Shown here: positions 2,388 to 26,170 of the stretch, piece by piece | How positions within the stretch are numbered: the first letter of the stretch is position 1 | How the letters are laid out: the number at the start of each line of letters is the position of its first letter | Virus record (IMG/VR): IMGVR_UViG_3300021495_000015 | Location: 1-27,453 of that record | Source: a virus | Strand: one strand, 5' to 3' | Length of the DNA: 27,453 bases | Notes under the pieces: generated by a model | The model's input: only the letters and a program-made list of their open reading frames with translations | What the model was told of the DNA's origin: nothing | Database searches by the model: none | Translations under genes and position numbers: made by a program

Positions 2388-3317
2388 ATGGTTAGTGAAT
2401 TGGATGTTAAAAGAGAGTTTGAAGAGTTAGCAGATACTACTAAAAGTGATATTTCAGCTATAATTAAATCCGAAGTATTTAGTAAACTTATTATAGAGGA
2501 AGCTGAGAAGGGTAGTAAACTAAAAGGCGTTATAGCCGCAAGAGAAGAAGATTTAAAGAAGGGTGATAGTGATACAGTTAAAGTTAGAATTTACCCAATT
2601 ATAGCTGTAAGTGCATCCTCAGAAGCTGCAGCTTTATCTGAAAGTGCAGCGTATAAACCTATAGCTTCGGAAGTTACTTTGGGTAGGTATGGTGTTAGTG
2701 TTCCATTGACTGCTGAAAGTATTTTCCACGCTAGTGATAATATAGTTGCTAGGGTAGCTTCAGCTATTGGTAAAGGTTGGAGGAATTTGTTAGATGAGAC
2801 TATAGCGGGAGTATTATTTGGTGATTATACTCCAGCAGTTAAGAAGGAATTAGCCGCAGCAGGTGATTTAGCTGACTTTTATGACAAGTTAAAAGCAGTA
2901 GTTGATACTATGCTTTATGAACAAGGTAAAGACCCAGATTACCTTATTTGCGGGAAGGATATTGCAGAGAAACTAGTTCTATTATATGAGGACGCTAATT
3001 ATAGGAATATAATTAAAGTAGATGATGATGGTAGGATTAAGAGTGTTTACGGCCTTAAAGTAATAGTTTCAGCTTATGCACCAGCTGTAGATGATACAGC
3101 AGGTAAAGTTTTGGCTGCCGTTATAGATAGTTCACAAGCTTTAGTTGAAGCTTCAGGGATACCAGCTAAGTTTGTTGAAAAGTATGAACCAGAGTATGAT
3201 AAGTATAAGGAAATATTCCAAGCTTACTGGGGTGTTGCTAGAGTAGAAGCAGACCTTGATGAGGATGATACAGCAGAAGCAATAGGAATTGGCCTTATAG
3301 TGAACCCTGCAGCGTGA
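2388..3317 (+). CDS. Major capsid protein, HK97 fold
   Basis: A 309-residue protein following the protease-scaffold gene, the standard place and size for an HK97-fold major capsid protein. It has a charged N-terminal helical stretch, an alanine- and serine-rich region (S-A-S-S-E-A-A-A-L-S-E-S-A-A-Y), then a segment reading V-T-L-G-R-Y-G-V-S-V-P-L-T-A-E-S, typical of the family's N-arm to E-loop part. V-Y-G-L-K-V-I-V-S lies in the likely A domain. Three bases separate it from the previous stop, and AAGGAGG lies about nine bases before the ATG, so expression should be high. No Cys pairs or crosslinking signature are obvious. The assignment rests on pattern and position; a structure prediction would settle it. 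Confidence 0.85.
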   Translation: MVSELDVKREFEELADTTKSDISAIIKSEVFSKLIIEEAEKGSKLKGVIAAREEDLKKGDSDTVKVRIYPIIAVSASSEAAALSESAAYKPIASEVTLGRYGVSVPLTAESIFHASDNIVARVASAIGKGWRNLLDETIAGVLFGDYTPAVKKELAAAGDLADFYDKLKAVVDTMLYEQGKDPDYLICGKDIAEKLVLLYEDANYRNIIKVDDDGRIKSVYGLKVIVSAYAPAVDDTAGKVLAAVIDSSQALVEASGIPAKFVEKYEPEYDKYKEIFQAYWGVARVEADLDEDDTAEAIGIGLIVNPAA

Positions 3318-12457: not shown

Positions 12458-13366
12458 CTATATCACCTCCTTTACTACACTTAAATAAAGTCTATAAGCA
12501 GGTTTAGGTAAAAGTTTATTATATTCCTCTTTAACTTCTTTAGCAATTTCTTTCATAGCAATATTGGGGTTAAGGAACTCTTCTTCAGAAAGTTTAAGCT
12601 TTATTTTATTAATTACTTCTAAAACTTCTACTTTAGTAGCTATATTCTCTTTATTTCGCTTCTGCTTCTTTTTAAGTCCTTTCTTATAGAAAAACTGCTC
12701 ATGAGTAGAAAAGTTAAAGTGAATAGGTTTAATTTTACCTCTTAATAAAATTTCACTATCACAGCCAATAGCTTTTATAACGAACCCCTCATAATCTCTT
12801 ATCCAAGCTAACCATGATAAATATTTCATTGTTTCCTTACCCTCCCCATCTTTAAACCAAGAAGGAGAAAGCGTTTCCTGTATTTCGCCTCCATTAATAG
12901 CCCATATATAATTATTAACCTGAAATGGATAAAAATTCTTAACATCATTATCCCAATATTCGAAAATTATAAAATTACTTGCTTGTGTAATTGGTGTGTA
13001 AGGTGCTTTTAACTTTCCACTTATAAGTTCACCAACTATATAAGAACCATTACCCCAATTTTCATAGAAATACTGTATTTGTCCTATTAAATAAGGATTA
13101 TTCTCTAATGCTTCTTTAAAGAGATTAAAAAACCTCTTTCTAGCATTTTCATTGCGGGTTAGCACATAAATTTTCCCATCCCATTTAACTAATCTAAGGT
13201 TTACCCCATCATACTTTCGTTCTATTATAATATAAAAATAAATATTTTGTTTAATTTTATTAAATTCTTTTAAAAATTGGGCATAATTAATAATTCTAGG
13301 GTAAGGCCTAACTTGTGGTGGGATTAACTCATTACTAAATGTAAGGCCATTTATCCCAAATTCCAT
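12458..13366 (-). CDS. ATP-dependent RNA ligase-like nucleotidyltransferase (Rnl3-like)
   Basis: A protein of about 302 residues with the covalent nucleotidyltransferase motifs in order: motif I K-Y-D-G-V-N-L-R-L with the AMP-accepting lysine at about 51, motif III V-G-E-L-I-S-G near 111-117, IIIa F-I-I-F-E-Y-W near 132-138, motif IV E-G-F-V-I-K near 193-198, motif V K-I-K-P near 211-214. The K-x-D-G-x-N-x-R form of motif I, the A-P-Y-T-P after motif III and the helical C-terminal part resemble archaeal Rnl3-type RNA ligases more than replicative DNA ligases. It would seal RNA ends, perhaps repairing RNA cut by host nucleases (inference). ATG 13366 has GAGG nine bases upstream; ATG 13375 is possible. 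It overlaps the upstream gene by 32 bases. Confidence 0.8.
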   Translation of the reverse strand: MEFGINGLTFSNELIPPQVRPYPRIINYAQFLKEFNKIKQNIYFYIIIERKYDGVNLRLVKWDGKIYVLTRNENARKRFFNLFKEALENNPYLIGQIQYFYENWGNGSYIVGELISGKLKAPYTPITQASNFIIFEYWDNDVKNFYPFQVNNYIWAINGGEIQETLSPSWFKDGEGKETMKYLSWLAWIRDYEGFVIKAIGCDSEILLRGKIKPIHFNFSTHEQFFYKKGLKKKQKRNKENIATKVEVLEVINKIKLKLSEEEFLNPNIAMKEIAKEVKEEYNKLLPKPAYRLYLSVVKEVI

Positions 13367-13661
13367 CCTTACCATCCTCTAATTCTTTTTTTAATTGTCT
13401 TTGATATGCTAAGTATAATTTTCCTAAAATATAAAATGAATGTGGAGCTTTAATAACCCCACCCCAATTAAATAATATTTTGGAGTGAGGAATAAGGTAA
13501 TTAATAGTAATATTTACCCAATTATAATTAAAGTAAACTTCTATTTTATAACCAGCCCCTACTTCCTCAATAAGTCTTGCTTCTACCCACTTACATTCCT
13601 TTACTTCTGGGAAAAGTTCTAAAGTGTAGCCATGCCACTCATAAGGGTTATATTCTTTCAT
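13335..13661 (-). CDS. Hypothetical protein, 108 aa, first gene of ligase operon
   Basis: No family recognised. The protein is aromatic-rich (M-K-E-Y-N-P-Y-E-W-H-G-Y-T-L-E-L-F-P at the start, W-D-K-W-P-Y-I at the end) with a likely beta-rich middle (Y-K-I-E-V-Y-F-N-Y-N-W-V-N-I-T-I-N-Y-L-I). AAGGAGG lies about eight bases before the ATG. It is directly preceded by promoter cassette copy 1 and overlaps the RNA ligase start, so the two are probably made together and may act together. Confidence 0.7.
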   Translation of the reverse strand: MKEYNPYEWHGYTLELFPEVKECKWVEARLIEEVGAGYKIEVYFNYNWVNITINYLIPHSKILFNWGGVIKAPHSFYILGKLYLAYQRQLKKELEDGKDGIWDKWPYI

Positions 13662-13675
13662 TTTTTTAACCTCCT

Positions 13676-13800
13676 TAAATTCCTTTAATTATAAATAAGT
13701 CTTAAATTATATAAACTTTTCTATTATAGTAAAGAATTATCAATAATGTAATAATGTTAATAAATAACTAATTAACTAAAAAATTAAGAAAAGTAAACTA
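13676..13800 (-). promoter_or_regulatory. Repeated promoter cassette, copy 1
   Basis: Reading leftward, the cassette has an AT-rich upstream half (with AGTTAATTAGTTATTTATTA), then CTTTACTATAATAG, a BRE-like GAAAAG, the TATA box TTTATATAA (about 13,707-13,716), and a short leader ending in TTTAAGGAGG. The same order recurs at four other places. Copy 1 drives the ligase operon. It is closest to copy 2 (both AAAGAATTATCAATAAT on the plus strand). Confidence 0.85.
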
Positions 13801-13810
13801 AAATAAAAAC

Positions 13811-14077: not shown

Positions 14078-14330
14078 CCTTATCCCCTTTTAACTCTTCT
14101 TTAATTAATTCTGTTGGAGGTTCTGCATTAAATAAAATTACAACTCCTTCTTCTACATCAGAAGTTAATTCAAACCTAAAACAAAAAGCTAAAGTTGCCT
14201 TCTCCCCCGGTTTTAAATTTTGTAATTGCTCAGTTAAATAGGGCCATGCTCTTCTAAGATTAACCCCAACTTTTTCTATAATATATGTTGGAAGTAAATC
14301 CAACTTATCTTTACCAAATTTATACTCCAT
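14073..14330 (-). CDS. Hypothetical protein, 85 aa, first gene of copy-2 operon
   Basis: No family recognised. It starts M-E-Y-K-F-G-K-D-K-L-D-L-L-P and has a helix-like N-terminal half (V-G-V-N-L-R-R-A-W-P-Y-L-T-E-Q-L) followed by a strand-rich half (K-A-T-L-A-F-C-F-R-F-E-L-T and G-V-V-I-L-F-N-A), with a charged end. AAGGAGGAGG precedes the ATG. It is directly downstream of promoter cassette copy 2. Confidence 0.65.
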   Translation of the reverse strand: MEYKFGKDKLDLLPTYIIEKVGVNLRRAWPYLTEQLQNLKPGEKATLAFCFRFELTSDVEEGVVILFNAEPPTELIKEELKGDKD

Positions 14331-14342
14331 TTTTATCCTCCT

Positions 14343-14466
14343 CCTTAAATTCCTTTAATAATAAATAGGCTTTAAATTATATAAACTTTTCTATTATAGT
14401 AAAGAATTATCAATAATATACTAACATTAATAAATAACTAATTGATTAAAAAGTTAAAGAAAAGTA
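14343..14466 (-). promoter_or_regulatory. Repeated promoter cassette, copy 2
   Basis: Near-identical to copy 1 through the TATA box (TTTATATAATTTAA read leftward; about 14,377-14,390) and the upstream CTTTACTATAATAGAAAAG. The outer half again contains the TTAGTTATTTATTAA block. It drives the two-gene unit at 13,811-14,330. Confidence 0.85.
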
Positions 14467-14470
14467 AAGT

Positions 14471-14794
14471 TTAACTTATATGGTTACTCCAACCAATTAA
14501 CCAAGTTATATACTCATCTAAATCTATAAGTTCCAGTTCTAAAAGAGTTTTTACTGAAACAGCTTCCCTTCTTTCCTTTTTAGGTTTAAAACTATCCTTA
14601 ATAATTTTATCCGTTTCTTTTATTAATTTTTGGACTACCCCAATAAAATCATCTAAAACTTTTACTGTTTCTTCTGTTTCTGCTATTGACTCGTGTAACC
14701 CCATTTTTCCCTTAGTAGCTACTAAAATTGCATGCTTATATTCTGGTGTTTTCCTAAATTCATATAATTTCTTTTCAATTTCTCTAACTTCCAT
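14471..14794 (-). CDS. Hypothetical helical protein, 107 aa
   Basis: No family recognised. The protein is largely helical and charged (E-V-R-E-I-E-K-K-L-Y-E-F-R-K, V-L-D-D-F-I-G-V-V-Q-K-L-I-K-E-T) with a tail ending Y-I-T-W-L-I-G-W-S-N-H-I-S. AGGAGG lies eight to nine bases before the ATG. Second gene of the copy-3 operon, 12 bases after the previous stop. It could be an adaptor or inhibitor protein, but nothing specific can be read from it. Confidence 0.65.
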   Translation of the reverse strand: MEVREIEKKLYEFRKTPEYKHAILVATKGKMGLHESIAETEETVKVLDDFIGVVQKLIKETDKIIKDSFKPKKERREAVSVKTLLELELIDLDEYITWLIGWSNHIS

Positions 14795-14806: not shown

Positions 14807-15034
14807 CTAAAAAAACCCTTCCTTTGGTTTTGAATTTAAAACTGCATCTATATCCCCATCAGGAAGTTCTTGGTAACTTCCCTCTAGGAATTTCCAAATC
14901 TCATACCTATTCTTCTGTAAGTTCATTACTTCGGCCTTACTCTTTACCCTAACTCTAGTTTTTTGTAGAAGGTTACTTTGAGGGGCAACCTCTACTAAAA
15001 ACCCTTTAAAATCCTTTTCTTCTTCTTTTATCAT
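14807..15034 (-). CDS. Hypothetical protein, 75 aa, first gene of copy-3 operon
   Basis: No family recognised. Charged protein beginning M-I-K-E-E-E-K-D-F-K-G-F-L-V-E-V-A-P with a basic middle (R-V-R-V-K-S-K-A-E-V) and a C-terminal acidic part (E-L-P-D-G-D-I-D-A-V-L). AAGGAGG precedes the ATG, and promoter cassette copy 3 lies immediately upstream. Confidence 0.65.
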   Translation of the reverse strand: MIKEEEKDFKGFLVEVAPQSNLLQKTRVRVKSKAEVMNLQKNRYEIWKFLEGSYQELPDGDIDAVLNSKPKEGFF

Positions 15035-15049
15035 TTTTTTAACCTCCTT

Positions 15050-15175
15050 AAATTCCTCTAATTATAAATAGTCTTTAAACTATATAAACCTTACTATTAT
15101 AATAAAGAACTATTATTAATGAAATAGTTTTAATAAATAACTAATTAACTAAAATATTAAAGAAAAGTAAACTAA
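15050..15175 (-). promoter_or_regulatory. Repeated promoter cassette, copy 3
   Basis: Same layout as copies 1 and 2. TATA box TTTATATAG read leftward (about 15,080-15,088), preceded by TATTATAATAGTAAGG. Belongs to a second subtype with copies 4 and 5, which share AAAGAACTATTATTAAT and AGTTTTAATAAATAACTAATT on the plus strand. It drives the unit at 14,471-15,034. Confidence 0.85.
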
Positions 15176-15177
15176 AA

Positions 15178-15524: not shown

Positions 15525-15689
15525 TCAAACCTCCATTATTATTACTTCGTCAAAAATATACTCATTTGTATCCACGTAATAAAATAATTTCGTTGCCCAA
15601 GTCCATCTAACTTTTCTACCGCTTTTAAGGTCTTGATACTCTGGTTCTCCCCACCAAGTTTGTCCTATTTTCTTTAAATTTACACTCAT
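15525..15689 (-). CDS. Hypothetical small protein, 54 aa, first gene of copy-4 operon
   Basis: A 54-residue frame starting M-S-V-N-L-K-K-I-G-Q-T-W-W-G-E-P-E-Y and continuing R-K-V-R-W-T-W-A-T-K-L-F-Y-Y-V-D, ending D-E-V-I-I-M-E-V. Tryptophan- and tyrosine-rich, probably a small beta fold. AAGGAGATGAT precedes the ATG by a normal distance, promoter cassette copy 4 lies directly upstream, and the DUF6876-like gene follows, so it is very likely real despite its size. Confidence 0.65.
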   Translation of the reverse strand: MSVNLKKIGQTWWGEPEYQDLKSGRKVRWTWATKLFYYVDTNEYIFDEVIIMEV

Positions 15690-15703
15690 TTTTATCATCT
15701 CCT

Positions 15704-15831
15704 TAAATTCCTCTAATTATAGATAGTCTTTAAACTATATAAAGCTTACTATTATAATAAAGAACTATTATTAATAAAAAAGTTTTAATAAATAACTAAT
15801 TGACTAAAAAGATAAAGAAAAGTAAACTAAA
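15704..15831 (-). promoter_or_regulatory. Repeated promoter cassette, copy 4
   Basis: TATA box TTTATATAG read leftward (about 15,734-15,742) behind TATTATAATAGTAAGC; outer half with AATTAGTTATTTATTAA as in the other copies. It drives 15,178-15,689. Its outer edge abuts the palindrome upstream of the divergent regulator gene at 15,884. Confidence 0.85.
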
Positions 15832-16964: not shown

Positions 16965-17276
16965 TCACTCCCCATAAACAAGCATTTCTAACATTTCGTC
17001 GATTGTTAAATCTTGGTATTCGTCCACTCTTGGGATTAAAAGGGCCTTTAAGTTTTTATCCCAAACTGCAGTTTTAAGAAACCCCTTCTCCGTTAAAAAA
17101 TCCCTAAGTTGGGATTTGAGTTTCCCATACTTTTTTCTCCCTATGTAAAGAGGGAATTTAACGGCGAACGTATCACTTTCCACTTCTTCAATTACAACTT
17201 TAATGTGCTGTTTTTCAAAGAATTGGCTTAATTCCTCCCTCTCCAAATAGATAGTTTTTATTTTTTCTTCTTCCAC
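16965..17276 (-). CDS. Hypothetical protein, 103 aa, first gene of copy-5 operon
   Basis: No family recognised. Mixed alpha/beta protein with an early E-E-L-S-Q-F-F-E-K-Q-H-I-K-V-V-I, a strand-like F-A-V-K-F-P-L-Y-I-G-R-K-K-Y-G-K-L-K and a C-terminal acidic helix (T-I-D-E-M-L-E-M-L-V-Y-G-E). It starts at GTG 17276, eight bases after GGAGG in the leader element CCTAACGGGAGG, which recurs before the MCM, nuclease and other genes. Confidence 0.65.
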   Translation of the reverse strand: MEEEKIKTIYLEREELSQFFEKQHIKVVIEEVESDTFAVKFPLYIGRKKYGKLKSQLRDFLTEKGFLKTAVWDKNLKALLIPRVDEYQDLTIDEMLEMLVYGE

Positions 17277-17304
17277 TTTATCATCCTCCCGTTAGGTTCT
17301 TAAT

Positions 17305-17410
17305 ATTAAATAGGCCTTAAAGTATATAAACCTTACTATTATAATAAAGAACTATTATTAATGAAATAGTTTTAATAAATAACTAATTGACTAAAAAGTT
17401 AAAGAAAAGT
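17305..17410 (-). promoter_or_regulatory. Repeated promoter cassette, copy 5
   Basis: TATA box TTTATATAC read leftward (about 17,322-17,330) behind TATTATAATAGTAAGG; the outer half matches copies 3 and 4 closely (AGTTTTAATAAATAACTAATTGACTAAAAAG on the plus strand, given here as one aligned block in three parts). Its leader differs, carrying CCTAACGGGAGG. It drives 16,400-17,276 and lies just downstream of the MCM gene. Confidence 0.85.
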
Positions 17411-17412
17411 AA

Positions 17413-19449
17413 TTATAATGCGGAAATCTTAATAAGGCCTCCTACAGTTGAAAAAATCTTTTTCTTTTTCTCTAAAAAGGCAATACCCTTATCCACATCC
17501 TTTTTAGATAACCCTTGCTTTTTAGCTTCTTTTAGTAACTCAATATAACTAACTCCCTGCCCATCATCTAACGCTTTAATTAAATCCATTAACTTTTCAG
17601 CCTTCTGAATACTACTCATACTTTGCCCCATTTCTAAAATCATGTAATCTATTTCCCCAGTTTCAGGGTCAAGTAACATATCCCTCCAAGTATATTCTAA
17701 AAGTTTAATTACTGCTTGGACATCAGACTTTTCCACAATAGGGCTTAACCTCATTTTAGCATAAGCTTCTGAAAGTCTTATTATGGCCTCTAACTGTCTC
17801 GGGGTAATTGGTAACGTTTTAACATTATTCTCCTCTTCTGTATTTTTAGTTCTAGTTCTAACATCCACGTAATACTTTATAGCCTTGTCCATTGCTTCTC
17901 GAGAAAACTTAGGCTTAATATTCCGTTTAGCATAAGCGATATACTTTTTAAGCAGTTCAAAGGGGATTGGGATATCTACCTCCTCTTGTTGCCTTACCTT
18001 AAAAATATGTTGAGCTATTAAACTATCTTTTACAGGGTTAGGCTCATCCCTTAATATAAAAATTAAGTCAAACCTACTAATTAGAGTTGGTGGTAAATCA
18101 ATTTGTTCCGTTAATAATTTCTCTGGTAAAAACTTTCCTGCAATAGGGTTAGCTGCAGCTATAATTGTAGTTCTTGCATTTAAAGTTACAGTTATTCCTG
18201 CTTTGGCTACACTAACAGTATTCTGCTCCATTGCTTCGTGAATAGCTGACCTGTCCTTACTACTCATTTTTTCAAGCTCATCAATAGCTGCAACTCCCCC
18301 ATCAGCTAGAACTAAAACCCCAGCTTCTAAAATCCACGACCCAGTTAATTCATCCCTAACTGCACTAGCAGTAAGGCCTGCTGCTGAAACTCCCTTGCCA
18401 CTAGTATAAATACTTCTCGGTGTAATATTTACAATACTCTTTAATAATTGACTTTTAGCTAAACCCGGGTCGCCTACTAAAAGCACGTGTGAAATTCCCC
18501 TTAACCTTGTTTTATTATTTAATACTACCTCATTACCACCAAATAATGCTAAAGCAAGGCCCAATTTTACCTCTTCATAACCATACACTTCTGGTGCTAT
18601 AGATTTAGTTATTCGTTCTACTATATCAGGCCTTTGGGCCAATTCTAGTATTTTTTCTTCATCCTCTTTTGTAATCTCTATCCTTTCATAATCTTCCGTA
18701 TCCTTTTCAATCCAATTAGCTACTAGAATTCGTTTAAATGTGGAAAATTTAGCCTCTTTTCTTGGTAAAACTTTATAAACTGCTGTAATTCTTACTTTAT
18801 CCCCTGCATTTACTTTATCTACTAAATCATCTAAAATTATTACTTCAACATACCTTGGGGTTTCATTACCTTGTAAATTCTCATATAAATCTTGAACTCT
18901 CACTATTTGGTGAGGCATCCACTTACTCTTTTCTAAATCTAACTCAATATCCCTACTTCCGCAATCTTCACATTTATTAGGCTTAACGAAAGGTAAGTAA
19001 GGTTTTTGTAATAAGGCCATTTCATTCCCGCAATCCTTACAAATAAATACTGAATAATAAGGATAATCTTCGGGGTCTCGTTTTAACACTACAATTCCTT
19101 CAACTTGAACAAACTTATTAATATACTCTGGAGCTAAATCTTTAACTAAAATAGTTTTAGATAAATTATGTATATGGACTTTTATTGGTTTTTTTGGGTA
19201 TTCATATAATACTTCCTCATAAAAAAGCTTTACTGCCTCTTCCATTGCTGAAATAACCTCTTCTGGGTTTTCTAATAGGGCCTCTGCTAACTCTGGTTCG
19301 TATGCACTAATATTTTGGTAATCTATTACAAAAGGCTTATCTAAAACTGCAAAATCTGTTATTAAATTCTTGTATTTATGGCCTTCCTTTTCATTAAAAT
19401 AAGTTCTAAAGATTTTAAGGCTTTTCTCAATTATTTCTTCTCTATCCAT
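17413..19449 (-). CDS. mcm: MCM replicative DNA helicase
   Basis: A 678-residue protein with the full archaeal MCM architecture: an N-terminal OB/zinc domain with C-x2-C (137, 140) and C-x2-C (160, 163); an AAA+ core with Walker A G-D-P-G-L-A-K-S-Q near 326-334, Walker B A-A-I-D-E-L-E near 387-393, sensor 1 A-A-A-N-P near 431-435 and the arginine finger in L-I-S-R-F-D-L-I near 457-464; and a C-terminal winged helix (last ~70 residues). It unwinds DNA 3' to 5' as a hexamer ahead of the fork. All key residues appear intact, so it should be active and lets the virus start replication with its own helicase. ATG 19449 follows CTAACGGGAGG by nine to ten bases. It has its own promoter. Confidence 0.97.
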   Translation of the reverse strand: MDREEIIEKSLKIFRTYFNEKEGHKYKNLITDFAVLDKPFVIDYQNISAYEPELAEALLENPEEVISAMEEAVKLFYEEVLYEYPKKPIKVHIHNLSKTILVKDLAPEYINKFVQVEGIVVLKRDPEDYPYYSVFICKDCGNEMALLQKPYLPFVKPNKCEDCGSRDIELDLEKSKWMPHQIVRVQDLYENLQGNETPRYVEVIILDDLVDKVNAGDKVRITAVYKVLPRKEAKFSTFKRILVANWIEKDTEDYERIEITKEDEEKILELAQRPDIVERITKSIAPEVYGYEEVKLGLALALFGGNEVVLNNKTRLRGISHVLLVGDPGLAKSQLLKSIVNITPRSIYTSGKGVSAAGLTASAVRDELTGSWILEAGVLVLADGGVAAIDELEKMSSKDRSAIHEAMEQNTVSVAKAGITVTLNARTTIIAAANPIAGKFLPEKLLTEQIDLPPTLISRFDLIFILRDEPNPVKDSLIAQHIFKVRQQEEVDIPIPFELLKKYIAYAKRNIKPKFSREAMDKAIKYYVDVRTRTKNTEEENNVKTLPITPRQLEAIIRLSEAYAKMRLSPIVEKSDVQAVIKLLEYTWRDMLLDPETGEIDYMILEMGQSMSSIQKAEKLMDLIKALDDGQGVSYIELLKEAKKQGLSKKDVDKGIAFLEKKKKIFSTVGGLIKISAL

Positions 19450-19484: not shown

Positions 19485-19525
19485 AAGTCTATTTATATAA
19501 ACCTTTCTATTAAAATAAACTTTTT
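19485..19525 (-). promoter_or_regulatory. Promoter of the MCM gene
   Basis: Read leftward: GTTTATTTTAATAG, BRE-like GAAAGG, then TATA box TTTATATAAATAG (about 19,489-19,500), about 40-50 bases before the ATG. The TATA and upstream AATAG parts match the cassette promoters, but the far-upstream cassette half is missing. Confidence 0.75.
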
Positions 19526-20858: not shown

Positions 20859-21206
20859 TTAATCCTCATTTATGAAGATATAATAATGCAGTTTATTTTT
20901 TTTACTTAGCCTTTGTTCTAACTTTACTTTAATTGTTTCATCAGGGAAATTAATTGGGAAGTCTAAAAATTGCTTTCCTTGCCCCATTAAAACTTTTGAT
21001 ACTGTATTCATAAAATATTTTTTCCCGTCCTTATCAATATGGAAACTCATGTATTCACTATTAGTTTCAGGGTTTACTCTAGGGAAAACCCCTTCAACCA
21101 CAAAAACCTCCCCAATTAATTCTTCAGGTTTTATTTTTTCTCTTTCTACATCATCTTCTTTAAAAACCTCTTCTACAACTTCATCCATCGTATATTGTTT
21201 ACCCAT
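20859..21206 (-). CDS. Hypothetical acidic protein, 115 aa, possibly OB-like
   Basis: No family recognised with confidence. After a charged N-terminal helix (M-D-E-V-V-E-E-V-F-K-E-D-D) the protein is strand-rich: G-E-V-F-V-V-E-G-V-F-P-R-V, Y-M-S-F-H-I-D-K-D-G-K-K-Y-F-M and T-I-K-V-K-L-E-Q-R-L, ending H-Y-Y-I-F-I-N-E-D. The strand layout and acidic end would suit a small single-strand DNA-binding OB fold in a replication module, but this is inference only. GGAGG lies nine bases before the ATG. First gene of the leftward operon. Confidence 0.65.
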   Translation of the reverse strand: MGKQYTMDEVVEEVFKEDDVEREKIKPEELIGEVFVVEGVFPRVNPETNSEYMSFHIDKDGKKYFMNTVSKVLMGQGKQFLDFPINFPDETIKVKLEQRLSKKNKLHYYIFINED

Positions 21207-21245: not shown

Positions 21246-21275
21246 CTTATCACTTATAAACTTTTCTATTAAAAT
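21246..21275 (-). promoter_or_regulatory. Promoter of the 20,859-21,206 operon
   Basis: Read leftward: GTTTATTTTAATAG, BRE-like GAAAAG, TATA box TTTATAAGTG, about 50 bases before the ATG. The upstream AATAGAAAAG is the same as in cassette copies 1 and 2. Confidence 0.7.
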
Positions 21276-22144: not shown

Positions 22145-22437
22145 TTAATCCGCCTCCCGCTAGGTTAATTAATAAATAATTAGTTACTATTATTTATAAA
22201 CCTTATCATTATATTCTTACTTGAATAATAATGAATTATTTAGTTAATTTATGTTGGTATAGAGTAATATAAAGTGTTATACTATATGGGTGTAAATATA
22301 AAAAGTGTATATTTAATAATCTCATAATATTACTATTCCTTTTATTAATACGGCCTTACCAAAAACTTTATATAATAGTATTACAAATTAATATACATGA
22401 ATAGGCTATTAAATAAAAAAGTAAAGGGGTGGGAGTA
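22145..22437. promoter_or_regulatory. Divergent promoter region
   Basis: Leftward promoter of the RHH-like gene: AAGGTTTATAAATA read leftward (about 22,192-22,205). Rightward promoter of the 22,438 gene: AAAAACTTTATATAATAG at 22,361-22,378, about 60 bases before the ATG. Between them, AT-rich sequence contains several more TATA-like strings (around 22,280-22,320) that could be decoys or extra promoters. No gene is supported here. Confidence 0.65.
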
Positions 22438-23054: not shown

Positions 23055-23168
23055 GTTAATCCCCTTAGTAATAAGTTGTATTAAATATTTATAAACTTTA
23101 CTATAATAATAAAAAAACCAAAAAGGTTAAATAACCCCTCTTTTATTATATTAAAGTGAGGTGATTTC

Positions 23169-24383
23169 ATGGGGTTAAACAGGACACAATTAAAAATCCT
23201 TTCTATTCTGGAAAAGTCTTCTCCAATGGATAGAAAGGCCCTTTTCTTTGAAAGCGGGTTACCTGCTTGTTCTTTTAGGGGACGTTTGTCGGAACTTCGT
23301 AAAAAAGGCCTTATTGATTATAATAAGGAAAAAGTATGGCTAAAAAAGGCAAGTAATAAACCTATAATTTCAGAAAAAGAGGATAATACTTACTCTTTTA
23401 AAAAACAAAAATATGATTTTAATAGTCTTACTTCTATTAAAGAACCAAATAATTTAATAAATAGGAAGCTTACTATTGTGTTAAGTGATTTACACCTTGG
23501 TGATAAAAATGTTATGATTAATACTTATAAAAGCACAATAAGTAATTTACTTAATAAAATAGCAATATTATCTACAGAAGGGCCTTTTGATACGATAACA
23601 GTAATTTTAAATGGGGATGCAGTTTCAGGGAGAAATATTTTTAGAGGTCAAGAGGCCCAAAATATCTTTAACAAGGGAAATATGCAAATTCTATACGCTT
23701 CAGCTTACTTATACCAGTTAAATGAACAGTTAGAGCAATACGCTAATGTAGAGTGGTTTATTATTAAAGGTAATCACGACCAATACTCGGGAGATAATTA
23801 TGCTTGGCTTTTAGCGGATAAACTTAGAGCTTTAGGCCTTGATGCGTTTTATGCTGGGCATGAGTTTATCACAAATTTAGGTAATACAGAGAAACAACAT
23901 TGGGCCTTAATTGAGCACGGTTATGGGGGAGGTAATTATTATCCTTTAAGTTACGAGTTTATTAGGCAAAGCACTAAGAAAGTTATTGAAACTAATATGA
24001 GGCAATGGGAGCAAGGTTTAGGCCCGATTGAGCGAGTTATTGTGGGGCATACTCATTGGCTTAATACTAATTTTCAACAAGATTTAAGATGGGCTTTTGA
24101 TGTTAGTGGTGGTTTCCAAAAAAATAATAGGGTAGAGTTAGGAATGAACCAAAGGCCTCCGGGAGTATTATTATATGCTTTTGATGGTAGTAAGGAAGGG
24201 TTATCTATTTATGATTGGAAGGGTGGGTTAAGATTATTTGAAATTCCACCTGATGGGGAAGTTTTATATAATGAAATTCACGACCCAGCCTTAACTTTAA
24301 ATAATCATTCAGATGTAGCGTCAGTATTAGCTAATTTCTATAAGTTTTTAGTAGAAAAGGGGTTAGTGAAGTATTTTGAGTGA
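23169..24383 (+). CDS. Winged-helix/calcineurin-like metallophosphoesterase fusion
   Basis: A 404-residue protein. Residues 1-60 form a winged-helix-like domain (L-K-I-L-S-I-L-E-K, R-K-A-L-F-F-E-S-G-L, G-R-L-S-E-L-R-K-K-G-L-I-D). From about 100 the protein has all five metallophosphoesterase motifs: D-L-H-L-G-D at 107-112, N-G-D near 148-150, G-N-H-D at 201-204, E-H-G-Y at 249-252 and G-H-T-H at 293-296. All metal ligands are present, so it is expected to be an active phosphoesterase, on DNA ends, nucleotides or proteins; the DNA-binding domain favours nucleic acid. GAGGTGAT just upstream of ATG 23169 is an ideal ribosome binding site. It heads the right-hand rightward module. Confidence 0.85.
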   Translation: MGLNRTQLKILSILEKSSPMDRKALFFESGLPACSFRGRLSELRKKGLIDYNKEKVWLKKASNKPIISEKEDNTYSFKKQKYDFNSLTSIKEPNNLINRKLTIVLSDLHLGDKNVMINTYKSTISNLLNKIAILSTEGPFDTITVILNGDAVSGRNIFRGQEAQNIFNKGNMQILYASAYLYQLNEQLEQYANVEWFIIKGNHDQYSGDNYAWLLADKLRALGLDAFYAGHEFITNLGNTEKQHWALIEHGYGGGNYYPLSYEFIRQSTKKVIETNMRQWEQGLGPIERVIVGHTHWLNTNFQQDLRWAFDVSGGFQKNNRVELGMNQRPPGVLLYAFDGSKEGLSIYDWKGGLRLFEIPPDGEVLYNEIHDPALTLNNHSDVASVLANFYKFLVEKGLVKYFE

Positions 24384-24449: not shown

Positions 24450-24653
24450 ATGATTTGGTTAGATAAGCATATTAAATATTTAGCTTTAAGTATTTTAATT
24501 TTTCCAGTAATCCTTAGTATGTTTAGTATTTGGTTTCTTTTAAATCCAATTACGGTTTTTGAGAAGGCTTTAACACTAGTTTTAACCTTAATTATTGGTG
24601 GAATTGTTTTTTCAATAGAAATACTTATTATTGAAGTTATTTCTAAGATTTAA
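24450..24653 (+). CDS. Small membrane protein, two membrane segments
   Basis: A 67-residue protein with hydrophobic helices at about 10-31 (L-A-L-S-I-L-I-F-P-V-I-L-S-M-F-S-I-W-F-L) and 40-65 (A-L-T-L-V-L-T-L-I-I-G-G-I-V-F-S-I-E-I-L). The short N-terminus is charged. The leader is CCTAACGGGAG followed by TTGGTATAA and the ATG. No family recognised; a role in the envelope or lysis is possible but unsupported. Confidence 0.6.
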   Translation: MIWLDKHIKYLALSILIFPVILSMFSIWFLLNPITVFEKALTLVLTLIIGGIVFSIEILIIEVISKI

Positions 24654-24675: not shown

Positions 24676-25287
24676 ATGATTAAAAAGAATAAAGGGAAGG
24701 ATAGAGGGGATTTATTTATAAATGGAATTAATAACGGGAATGAAAATGTTGAAGAAGAACTTAATTTATCTAATTGGGATGATTTACCATTATACTTTAA
24801 AGATTATGGCCTTGCTAAAGTTAAATTATATAGGAGTAATGCTTCAACAACTAGTGGTGGCACAGTTAAGAGTGGGGATTTTCACTTATATCTCGAGGAT
24901 GTAGAGGGTTATACTTATATTCAATTAGAGTTAGAGGATATTTCAGTAATTAATTTTTACTTAGAACATATAGCCCGATTTTTAGCTGGAGAGCCTAACC
25001 TCGAAAAGGATAGTAAAGTTTATAGTATTCCTAAAGAGTTACCTAATAAAGCAGATTTAATTATTGGGGTAACTCAAAGTCAAAAACTCCTTTTAATACT
25101 TAAAAATGAAAGTAATATTGTTAAAGTAGAAATGCCATTAAAGGATGTTATTTACTTTTCAACAGTTCTAAAGGTAATTTTTGAGGAAGCGTATAAGGAG
25201 TTTACTAAATTAAGGCTTGACTTATGGAGTAATGTAAAACCTAAAGTTTCTAAAAACCTTAAGTGGGAGGATACGATGTATGGTTGA
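24676..25287 (+). CDS. Hypothetical protein, 203 aa, upstream of TFB-like gene
   Basis: No family recognised. The N-terminus is charged and low in order (K-K-N-K-G-K-D-R-G-D), followed by a repeated strand pattern (F-H-L-Y-L-E-D-V-E-G-Y-T-Y-I-Q-L-E-L-E-D-I) and again K-L-L-L-I-L-K-N-E-S-N-I-V-K-V-E-M-P-L-K-D-V-I-Y-F, so it may contain two similar halves. ATG 24676 is chosen because GGGAGG lies eight bases upstream; the longer frame from 24631 overlaps the membrane-protein gene. The end overlaps the TFB-like start by eight bases, so the two are co-translated and may be functional partners. Confidence 0.6.
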   Translation: MIKKNKGKDRGDLFINGINNGNENVEEELNLSNWDDLPLYFKDYGLAKVKLYRSNASTTSGGTVKSGDFHLYLEDVEGYTYIQLELEDISVINFYLEHIARFLAGEPNLEKDSKVYSIPKELPNKADLIIGVTQSQKLLLILKNESNIVKVEMPLKDVIYFSTVLKVIFEEAYKEFTKLRLDLWSNVKPKVSKNLKWEDTMYG

Positions 25288-25882
25288 TAGGTGTCCGCTT
25301 TGTGGGTCTTATCATTTAATTTTAGACCCTATTAGGGGAGAAACATACTGTCAAGATTGTGGTTTAGTAATTAAAGAGAAAATGGATACAGCAGAAATTA
25401 GCACTTCAAAGAATAATTCAGTTAAGCATATTAATTATTATGTTGGTTCGCATTACTCTACTAAGTATGAACTATCTACATTGCATAATAAGGTGGGTAA
25501 AACACCGAGAGAATGGAAGTATGTTAAAGATTATATTAATACTGTTTCTTCTAAATTATACGTTCCTAAACCTGTTCAAGAAAACGCATTAAAATTATTT
25601 TTAGAAGTATATGAAACTGGGATTTTAAATAAAAAAACTGTAACTTTAGAGGGTGTTAGTTTAACAGCATTATTCATTGCTTCTAGAAGTGAGGGTATTA
25701 CTAGAGTAACCCCACCTAAATTAATAGAGTATGGCTTTATTTCAATAGAAGAGTTTTTACATTCAGCCTTATGGGTTGCTTATTCTACTTCAGGTTATTT
25801 CAATAAATATAATGAAGTTCTCTTTGAGGGAGGGGACTTTAACGAAAGTGAACAAAATGTAAATTATGTAGGGGATGATTAA
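25280..25882 (+). CDS. TFB/TFIIB-like transcription factor, shortened
   Basis: A 200-residue protein. The N-terminus is a TFIIB-type zinc ribbon, C5-P-L-C8 ... Y-C24-Q-D-C27-G-L-V-I (C-x2-C-x15-C-x2-C). After a shortened linker, residues about 80-160 resemble one cyclin fold (Y-V-P-K-P-V-Q-E-N-A-L-K-L-F, G-V-S-L-T-A-L-F-I-A-S-R, V-T-P-P-K-L-I-E-Y). Normal archaeal TFB is about 300 residues with two cyclin repeats that hold the BRE and TBP; here at most a partial second repeat fits, and the end is acidic. It may recruit RNA polymerase to viral promoters or act as a decoy. Its place inside a tail-gene operon suggests late expression. Confidence 0.85.
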   Translation: MVDRCPLCGSYHLILDPIRGETYCQDCGLVIKEKMDTAEISTSKNNSVKHINYYVGSHYSTKYELSTLHNKVGKTPREWKYVKDYINTVSSKLYVPKPVQENALKLFLEVYETGILNKKTVTLEGVSLTALFIASRSEGITRVTPPKLIEYGFISIEEFLHSALWVAYSTSGYFNKYNEVLFEGGDFNESEQNVNYVGDD

Positions 25883-26170
25883 ATGCCAGTCCAAAAAATT
25901 TATGCTGGTTCTTACGGAATTAAATTAACTGCAGAAACTAAATCGGATTTATCAACTGCAGTCCAAGTAAGTTTAATTGTTAAAAAACCTGATGGTTCAG
26001 AAGTAGAGTGGGTTGGGGTAATTAACGGTTCTATAATAGAGTATGTGCTTCAACAAGGAGATATAGATATTGCAGGGAAGTATTTAATCCAAACTAAAGC
26101 TGTTTTTAATGATGGGAGTGTAATTTATGGGCAAACAGATATTCTGCCCATATATGAAAAGTTTGAATGA
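25883..26170 (+). CDS. Small Ig-like tail/baseplate protein (BppU N-domain-like)
   Basis: A 95-residue, beta-rich protein. The pattern Y-A-G-S-Y-G-I-K-L-T-A-E, D-L-S-T-A-V-Q-V-S-L-I-V-K-K-P-D-G-S, I-I-E-Y-V-L-Q-Q-G-D-I and G-K-Y-L-I-Q-T-K-A-V resembles small phage baseplate-associated domains of the BppU N-terminal type. It starts at the base after the TFB-like stop, with GGGGATG as the ribosome binding site, and is followed 15 bases later by another tail-type gene. Likely a structural adaptor in the tail tip. Confidence 0.65.
   Translation: MPVQKIYAGSYGIKLTAETKSDLSTAVQVSLIVKKPDGSEVEWVGVINGSIIEYVLQQGDIDIAGKYLIQTKAVFNDGSVIYGQTDILPIYEKFE

Follow-up and report, generated by a model that had tools for sequence, protein, structure and literature searches.

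The gene at 25280–25882 of the window, by which is meant the whole 27,453-bp linear IMG/VR virus record analysed here, encodes, as its sequence shows, a TFB-derived protein (mini-TFB) in which a zinc ribbon and one complete first cyclin repeat are retained. Viral TFBs as such are known. New here are a conserved truncated TFB in an Archaeoglobi-linked tailed-virus lineage, its strict coupling to a protein of predicted Whirly/PUR fold (protein X) and a virus-enriched promoter core.

Gene context and domain content of the mini-TFB

The mini-TFB is encoded in a rightward late operon with the following features.

23127–23142 (approximate), plus strand: probable BRE/TATA of the late operon around AAAAAGGTTAAATAAC, without the AATAG motif described below, from sequence reading
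23169–24383, plus strand: calcineurin-like phosphoesterase, first gene of the late operon, 53–56% identical in relatives
24450–24653, plus strand: small membrane-like protein between the phosphoesterase and X
24676–25287, plus strand: protein X, 203 aa, predicted Whirly/PUR-alpha fold
25280–25882, plus strand: mini-TFB, 200 aa, with a zinc ribbon (aa 4–34), a short linker (aa 35–75), one cyclin repeat (aa 76–170) and a short acidic tail
25883–26170, plus strand: late gene after the mini-TFB, 62% identical to positions 17300–17016 of provirus contig C21
26186–26653, plus strand: tail-fibre-type late gene, 74% identical to positions 16992–16534 of C21

The mini-TFB ORF has its own Shine-Dalgarno sequence (GGGAGG, 25265–25270), and its start codon lies inside the 3' end of gene X. 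The phosphoesterase showed similarity to a phage-exonuclease family. A small protein like that between the phosphoesterase and X was also noted in the related contig L233, the likeness being one of position and type, not of sequence homology. Placement of the mini-TFB gene in a late or structural operon, as described in an earlier sequence-only reading of this DNA, was conserved in relatives and fits a timing role.

That reading had also described a shortened, virus-encoded TFB that keeps the polymerase-docking zinc ribbon, and this was borne out. Thus, the first 34 residues passed the curated cut-off of the profile for the TFIIB-type zinc ribbon (Pfam PF08271) with E=1.4e-9, with cysteines C5, C8, C24 and C27 invariant in the alignment and with the C-x2-C ... 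C-x2-C, RGE and CGLV features of a canonical archaeal TFB ribbon. The further proposal that there was room for about one full cyclin repeat was likewise upheld. Residues 83–142 resembled the TFIIB cyclin repeat (PF00382), weakly and, in the window protein by itself, short of the cut-off (E=0.0016), and all three complete mini-TFBs matched both PF08271 and PF00382, with best E values of 1e-10 and 2e-6, respectively, the latter among the two provirus homologues. A TFB profile aligned with the ribbon and first repeat only (53 bits in total), haloarchaeal TFBs on annotated plasmids were colinear with residues 5–142 in tblastn searches (E down to 2e-9), and a PDB sequence search retrieved the archaeal TFB core (1ais, 1d3u) and the TFIIB ribbon (1pft). 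The AF2 model obtained from the single sequence was weak (pLDDT 48.5) and contained five helices at the position expected for repeat 1. When this weak model was compared with the PDB by Foldseek, the top 26 matches were all TFIIB or Brf chains, and VIA-align of the model with repeat 1 of 1d3u_B gave a Z of 7.6, which falls under the tool's caveat for Z below 8; the cyclin assignment is therefore based on sequence and fold jointly.

In canonical TFB, the B-reader and B-linker serve open complex formation and start-site selection, and the helix-turn-helix of the second cyclin repeat reads the BRE. The B-reader and B-linker motifs (DxGPEWRAF ... RLRKWQ) were absent from the mini-TFB when it was aligned with real TFBs, and its linker comprised 41 aa (about 30 in the proviruses) as opposed to about 75–80 in host TFB. 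Nothing in the mini-TFB or its provirus homologues aligned with a second cyclin repeat, these proteins ending after repeat 1, and the region of the C-terminal BRE-reading helix-turn-helix was missing from the mini-TFB in the alignment with host TFB.

Conservation of the locus and the coupled protein X

Direct protein pattern scans of viral and genome contigs and tblastn searches of phages revealed no close relatives of the mini-TFB. Relatives were reached only via the major capsid protein (2388–3317), two 60%-identical copies of which were found in one 2.0-Mb genome, G369. The MCM, tried as another path, led only to haloarchaeal, rumen-methanogen and other MCMs that were too distant. G369 belongs to the same class as Archaeoglobi MAGs, and encodes a full-length TFB with about 95% identity to those of the MAGs; from these relatives we infer that the host of the window virus is linked to the Archaeoglobi, which are heat-loving archaea.

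Contig C21 of G369 (31.9 kb) is a provirus syntenic with the window virus, its order being phosphoesterase, X, mini-TFB and then, with intervening genes, terminase, genes of the 25883- and 26186-type, tail fibre, portal, capsid and tail genes. The block of phosphoesterase, X and mini-TFB was repeated in contigs C46 and C68 of the same genome, which carry an identical mini-TFB and were counted as one element, and in IMG/VR contig L233. The mini-TFB was accordingly present in four of four independent records that covered the locus (window, C21, C46/C68 and L233), in every case immediately behind X, with the phosphoesterase farther upstream. The provirus proteins (C21 and C46/C68) are 168 aa in length, with one repeat followed by a stop, and that of L233 is cut where it runs off the contig end. 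In a second IMG/VR fragment, L002 (7418 bp), the capsid protein was 99% identical; this fragment starts within the terminase gene, which suggests that the window is without terminase and portal probably because it is incomplete. An RNA-ligase-like nucleotidyltransferase (12458–13375, minus strand) was about 51–55% identical in the proviruses and 68% identical in L233.

Comparison of C21 with C46 gave dN/dS values of 0.10 for TFB, 0.11 for X and 0.075 for two neighbours, and the low values for TFB and X indicate proteins maintained by purifying selection. Identity between the window and C21 was about 25% for TFB and X as opposed to 52–74% for the phosphoesterase, the major capsid protein, the tape measure and the two genes after TFB; on these figures the X/TFB pair is diverging faster than neighbouring genes.

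Gene X, which was overlooked in the sequence-only reading, is probably the part of the locus that matters most for mechanism. Its 3' end overlapped the TFB start by exactly 8 nt in all four records (window, C21, C46 and L233), and in each of these the C-terminus of X was a conserved Tyr-Gly-stop. The identity of this overlap, despite only about 25% identity of both proteins between the window and the proviruses, suggests translational coupling and stoichiometric production of X and TFB.

No Pfam match above chance was obtained for X, and the Pfam Whirly and PurA profiles did not match any of the three X members up to E=10, which places X in neither sequence family. Weak matches to congerin (best E 0.012) covered only part of the protein and were taken as chance. 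The AF2 model of X, made from two sequences, had a confident core over residues 35–180 (pLDDT mostly 80–93, with 44 residues at 90 or above) that consisted of two tandem beta4-alpha repeats, as in the Whirly/PUR fold. The closest structural matches were Whirly WHY1 (Z 12.0 over 128 residues), PUR-alpha (Z 11.0) and MRP1/2 (Z 10.7), the next being at Z 6.7, and PUR-alpha was first in a Foldseek search with the model (E 5e-5). A phage Whirly protein is present in the viral library. Thus, X resembles Whirly and PUR-alpha in its two beta4-alpha repeats, with Z of 11–12 over 120–135 residues, but differs from them in having 8–12% identity and no sequence-family match and in forming a small family confined, in the genomes searched, to this virus group. 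Among 393 genomes from the phylum X was found in one, and it was found in none of 58 other genomes of the class. From the modelled fold we infer that X may bind single-stranded DNA, and a contact of X with DNA or with the mini-TFB is proposed from the fold and the gene coupling only.

Leftward promoters

The sequence-only reading had further claimed that several leftward promoters, including that of MCM, share AATAG plus BRE and TATA with upstream conservation, as a virus-wide motif at which the viral factor might replace host TFB. The features concerned are listed below.

17413–19449, minus strand: MCM helicase gene of the leftward replication module
19494–19511, minus strand: MCM promoter core, AATAGAAAGGTTTATATA
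21253–21270, minus strand: promoter core of the gene at 20859–21206, AATAGAAAAGTTTATAAG
13658–13803, minus strand: 146-nt promoter cassette, copy 1
14328–14473, minus strand: 146-nt promoter cassette, copy 2
15031–15176, minus strand: 146-nt promoter cassette, copy 3 (reference)
15686–15831, minus strand: 146-nt promoter cassette, copy 4
17273–17418, minus strand: 146-nt promoter cassette, copy 5

The sharing of the core was evident from the counts. Thus, AATAG..A..TTTATA occurred in seven copies, all on the minus strand and including the MCM promoter, as opposed to 0.10 expected from dinucleotide shuffles, and nine leftward promoters carried the core G[AT]AA[AG][GC]TTTATA or a near form of it, with the TATA starting 41–56 nt ahead of the start codon in those to which a start codon was assigned. 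The preferred archaeal TFB site has G at -6 and A at -3 of the TATA box (rule quoted in PMC11065993), and this host-type pattern was found in eight of the nine promoters, the one at 22200 having A at -6. The AATAG pentamer was rejected as an element apart from the BRE, its last G being the BRE G at -6. The part of the claim that concerned upstream conservation did not stand as a general promoter feature, this conservation being mostly explained by the five duplicated cassettes (79–92% identity). Outside the cassettes, upstream similarity was at background when the core was set aside, with the exception of 18 nt of 78% identity between the promoters of MCM and of the gene at 20859–21206. Nor was the motif virus-wide, since copies were found on leftward genes only and on no rightward gene of the window, including the operon that holds the mini-TFB. 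The cassettes precede small orphan genes that are candidate early or anti-defence genes.

In the relatives, the same GAAAAG-TTTATA core was noted in repeated cassettes, with a conserved downstream stretch peculiar to the relatives. The 14-mer GAAAAGTTTATAWA occurred ten times in the 2.0 Mb of G369, four times each in C21 and C46, once in C63 and once in a contig with chromosomal-looking genes; C63 matches C46 at 87–88% identity along more than 1.3 kb, and nine of the ten copies were proviral. By these counts the promoter core is a real virus-enriched signature, carried by what look like early genes. On the side of the late genes, no promoter element distinct from normal BRE/TATA was seen to be common to the four records. 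The provirus late operon and the operon opposite to it share a palindromic bidirectional BRE/TATA promoter, CTATATAAgTTTTTCG/CGAAAAAgTTATATAG (L229, C21 at about 24055–24095; L230, C46 at about 3070–3110).

A virus-wide role of the motif in binding the mini-TFB was unsupported, the motif being leftward only and its BRE canonical. It is likely that the motif is an early-gene regulatory signature read by host TBP/TFB together with a virus-encoded repressor or activator and unrelated to the mini-TFB. The restriction to leftward genes and the canonical BRE are consistent with this, as are the core and extended downstream element of the cassettes in relatives and the similar layout reported for other archaeal viruses, in which early anti-defence genes are distinguished by sequence conservation that surrounds a strong core (PMC11065993). 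With the regulatory sequences of SIRV2 and other archaeal viruses, which belong to a different virus lineage, the motif has in common that a strong BRE/TATA core and an extended stretch about it recur at several early-type genes (PMC11065993). Against this explanation, the regulator is only postulated, and the mini-TFB could still act at the core; it is compatible with the accessory role considered below.

Possible roles of the mini-TFB and X

We know of no archaeal virus that encodes an RNA polymerase. The explanation that we tentatively favour, at a little short of an even chance, is that the mini-TFB is a TFB3-like accessory initiation factor that acts on the host polymerase with X, and not a stand-alone TFB; the virus would then probably modulate rather than replace the host transcription start machinery. 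Made together with X from the front of the late operon, the mini-TFB would dock by its ribbon on the host RNA polymerase, either together with host TFB or in exchange with it, would gain from X a contact to (melted) viral DNA and would bias initiation by the host polymerase in the late phase or around the early-late switch. Host TBP and host TFB would keep recognition of viral BRE/TATA promoters, because BRE reading and the B-reader have been lost from the mini-TFB and all viral promoters, early and late, are of host type; a full-length TFB is present in the host genome (G369). The proposed replacement of host TFB at AATAG promoters is unlikely, since their BRE is canonical, the mini-TFB is without repeat 2 and its BRE-reading helix-turn-helix as well as B-reader and B-linker, and its gene lies outside the motif-bearing genes. 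Whether the mini-TFB would activate or inhibit transcription is not readable from sequence. Against an accessory factor stands the apparent lack, in the promoters inspected, of a late-specific element that would need a special factor.

The nearest known system is Sulfolobus TFB3, which combines a ribbon with an abbreviated core and lacks both B-finger and helix-turn-helix (PMC2246294) and which activates in trans on TFB1-TBP-DNA complexes (PMC2246294, PMC7289017, PMC5817253). The mini-TFB is like TFB3 in its kept ribbon, abbreviated core and absent B-finger and helix-turn-helix, the likeness being one of architecture according to the description in PMC2246294. Unlike the mini-TFB, TFB3 is cellular, chromosomal and induced by UV or DNA damage, and no coupled Whirly/PUR-fold partner is known for it.

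The main rival, somewhat unlikely in our estimation, is that the mini-TFB is a decoy or inhibitor, the ribbon of which would fill the polymerase dock, exclude host TFB and turn off transcription of host and early viral genes after activation of the late operon. Isolated ribbon competes in vitro and inhibits initiation, and displacement of TFB1 from the polymerase was the first effect seen with TFB3 (PMC2246294). Host RNAP is attenuated by ATV via RIP, a partial mimic of the TFB B-linker (PMC9501531), and other viral records with an MCM contain small ribbon ORFs that have no TFB core. The late operon, however, itself needs host polymerase at an ordinary BRE/TATA promoter, so that a general block would hurt the virus, and a decoy has no need of a retained cyclin repeat or of a strictly coupled X. 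The same coupling, to a predicted DNA-binding protein, would suit the mini-TFB and X as a complete two-part TFB replacement at late promoters, with X supplying the DNA contact of the missing repeat 2, and location at the front of the late operon and conservation through the virus group agree with such a late specificity factor. This is nevertheless improbable, as the late promoters of the four records have no element distinct from normal BRE/TATA and the mini-TFB has neither B-reader nor B-linker. The functional parallel would be the minimal sigma factor gp55 of phage T4 with its co-activators.

Finally, the adjacent phosphoesterase with its similarity to a phage-exonuclease family, the single-strand-binding-type fold of X and the structural and tail genes downstream would accord with reuse of the TFB fold by the mini-TFB and X in DNA replication, recombination or packaging. 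A role of this kind is likewise improbable, since the ribbon is the best conserved part of the protein and is TFIIB-like in all three complete members, which points to the polymerase. In a further explanation, which we regard as unlikely, the mini-TFB and its Whirly/PUR-fold subunit might together be a two-part viral initiation module of Archaeoglobi tailed viruses that re-programs the host enzyme for late transcription, as an archaeal counterpart of phage minimal sigma factors with co-activators. The two proteins make a small expressible system with which viral switching of host transcription could be probed, and the mini-TFB also bears on the working of truncated TFBs such as TFB3.

Full-length viral TFBs have been described in rudiviruses (ARV2, ARV3, MRV1 and SSRV1), in the Halorubrum tailed virus DL1 and in Aoguangviridae (PMC10768690, PMC9501531). 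The rudivirus TFBs were 281–282 aa and the DL1 TFB 310 aa in length, with 75–90% of cellular TFB aligned, whereas the mini-TFBs have one repeat only, comprise 168–200 aa and are coupled to X. A 2022 review regards neither the function of rudiviral TFBs nor a preference of viral TFBs for viral promoters as established (PMC9501531). ATV ORF145/RIP resembles the mini-TFB as a viral protein that targets the host RNA polymerase and TFB sites but is a four-helix bundle with no TFB homology (PMC5569661, PMC9501531).

Other shortened or altered TFB-like frames were noted in passing. Ribbon ORFs of about 75–185 aa without a TFB core were present in the MCM-bearing viral records L088, L090, L091, L093, L094, L096, L097, L103, L104 and L105; these are a lead only, as the specificity of PF08271 is limited, with matches above cut-off also in 8 of 14 control genomes, many of them bacterial. 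The MCM-bearing contig L089 (1273–1821, minus strand; same DNA within L035) contained a 252-aa frame with a ribbon and one helical, possibly cyclin-like domain, which is perhaps an independent mini-TFB. A mirror-image degeneration was seen around 5970–7015 in L112, L113 and L114, where full-length viral TFBs have retained the B-reader and carry a zinc-ribbon-like extension at the C-terminus, the cysteines of the N-terminal ribbon being absent. Short TFB-like frames in L204 (176 aa, Thermodiscus) and L210 (199 aa, Acidilobaceae) are possible cellular truncated TFBs.
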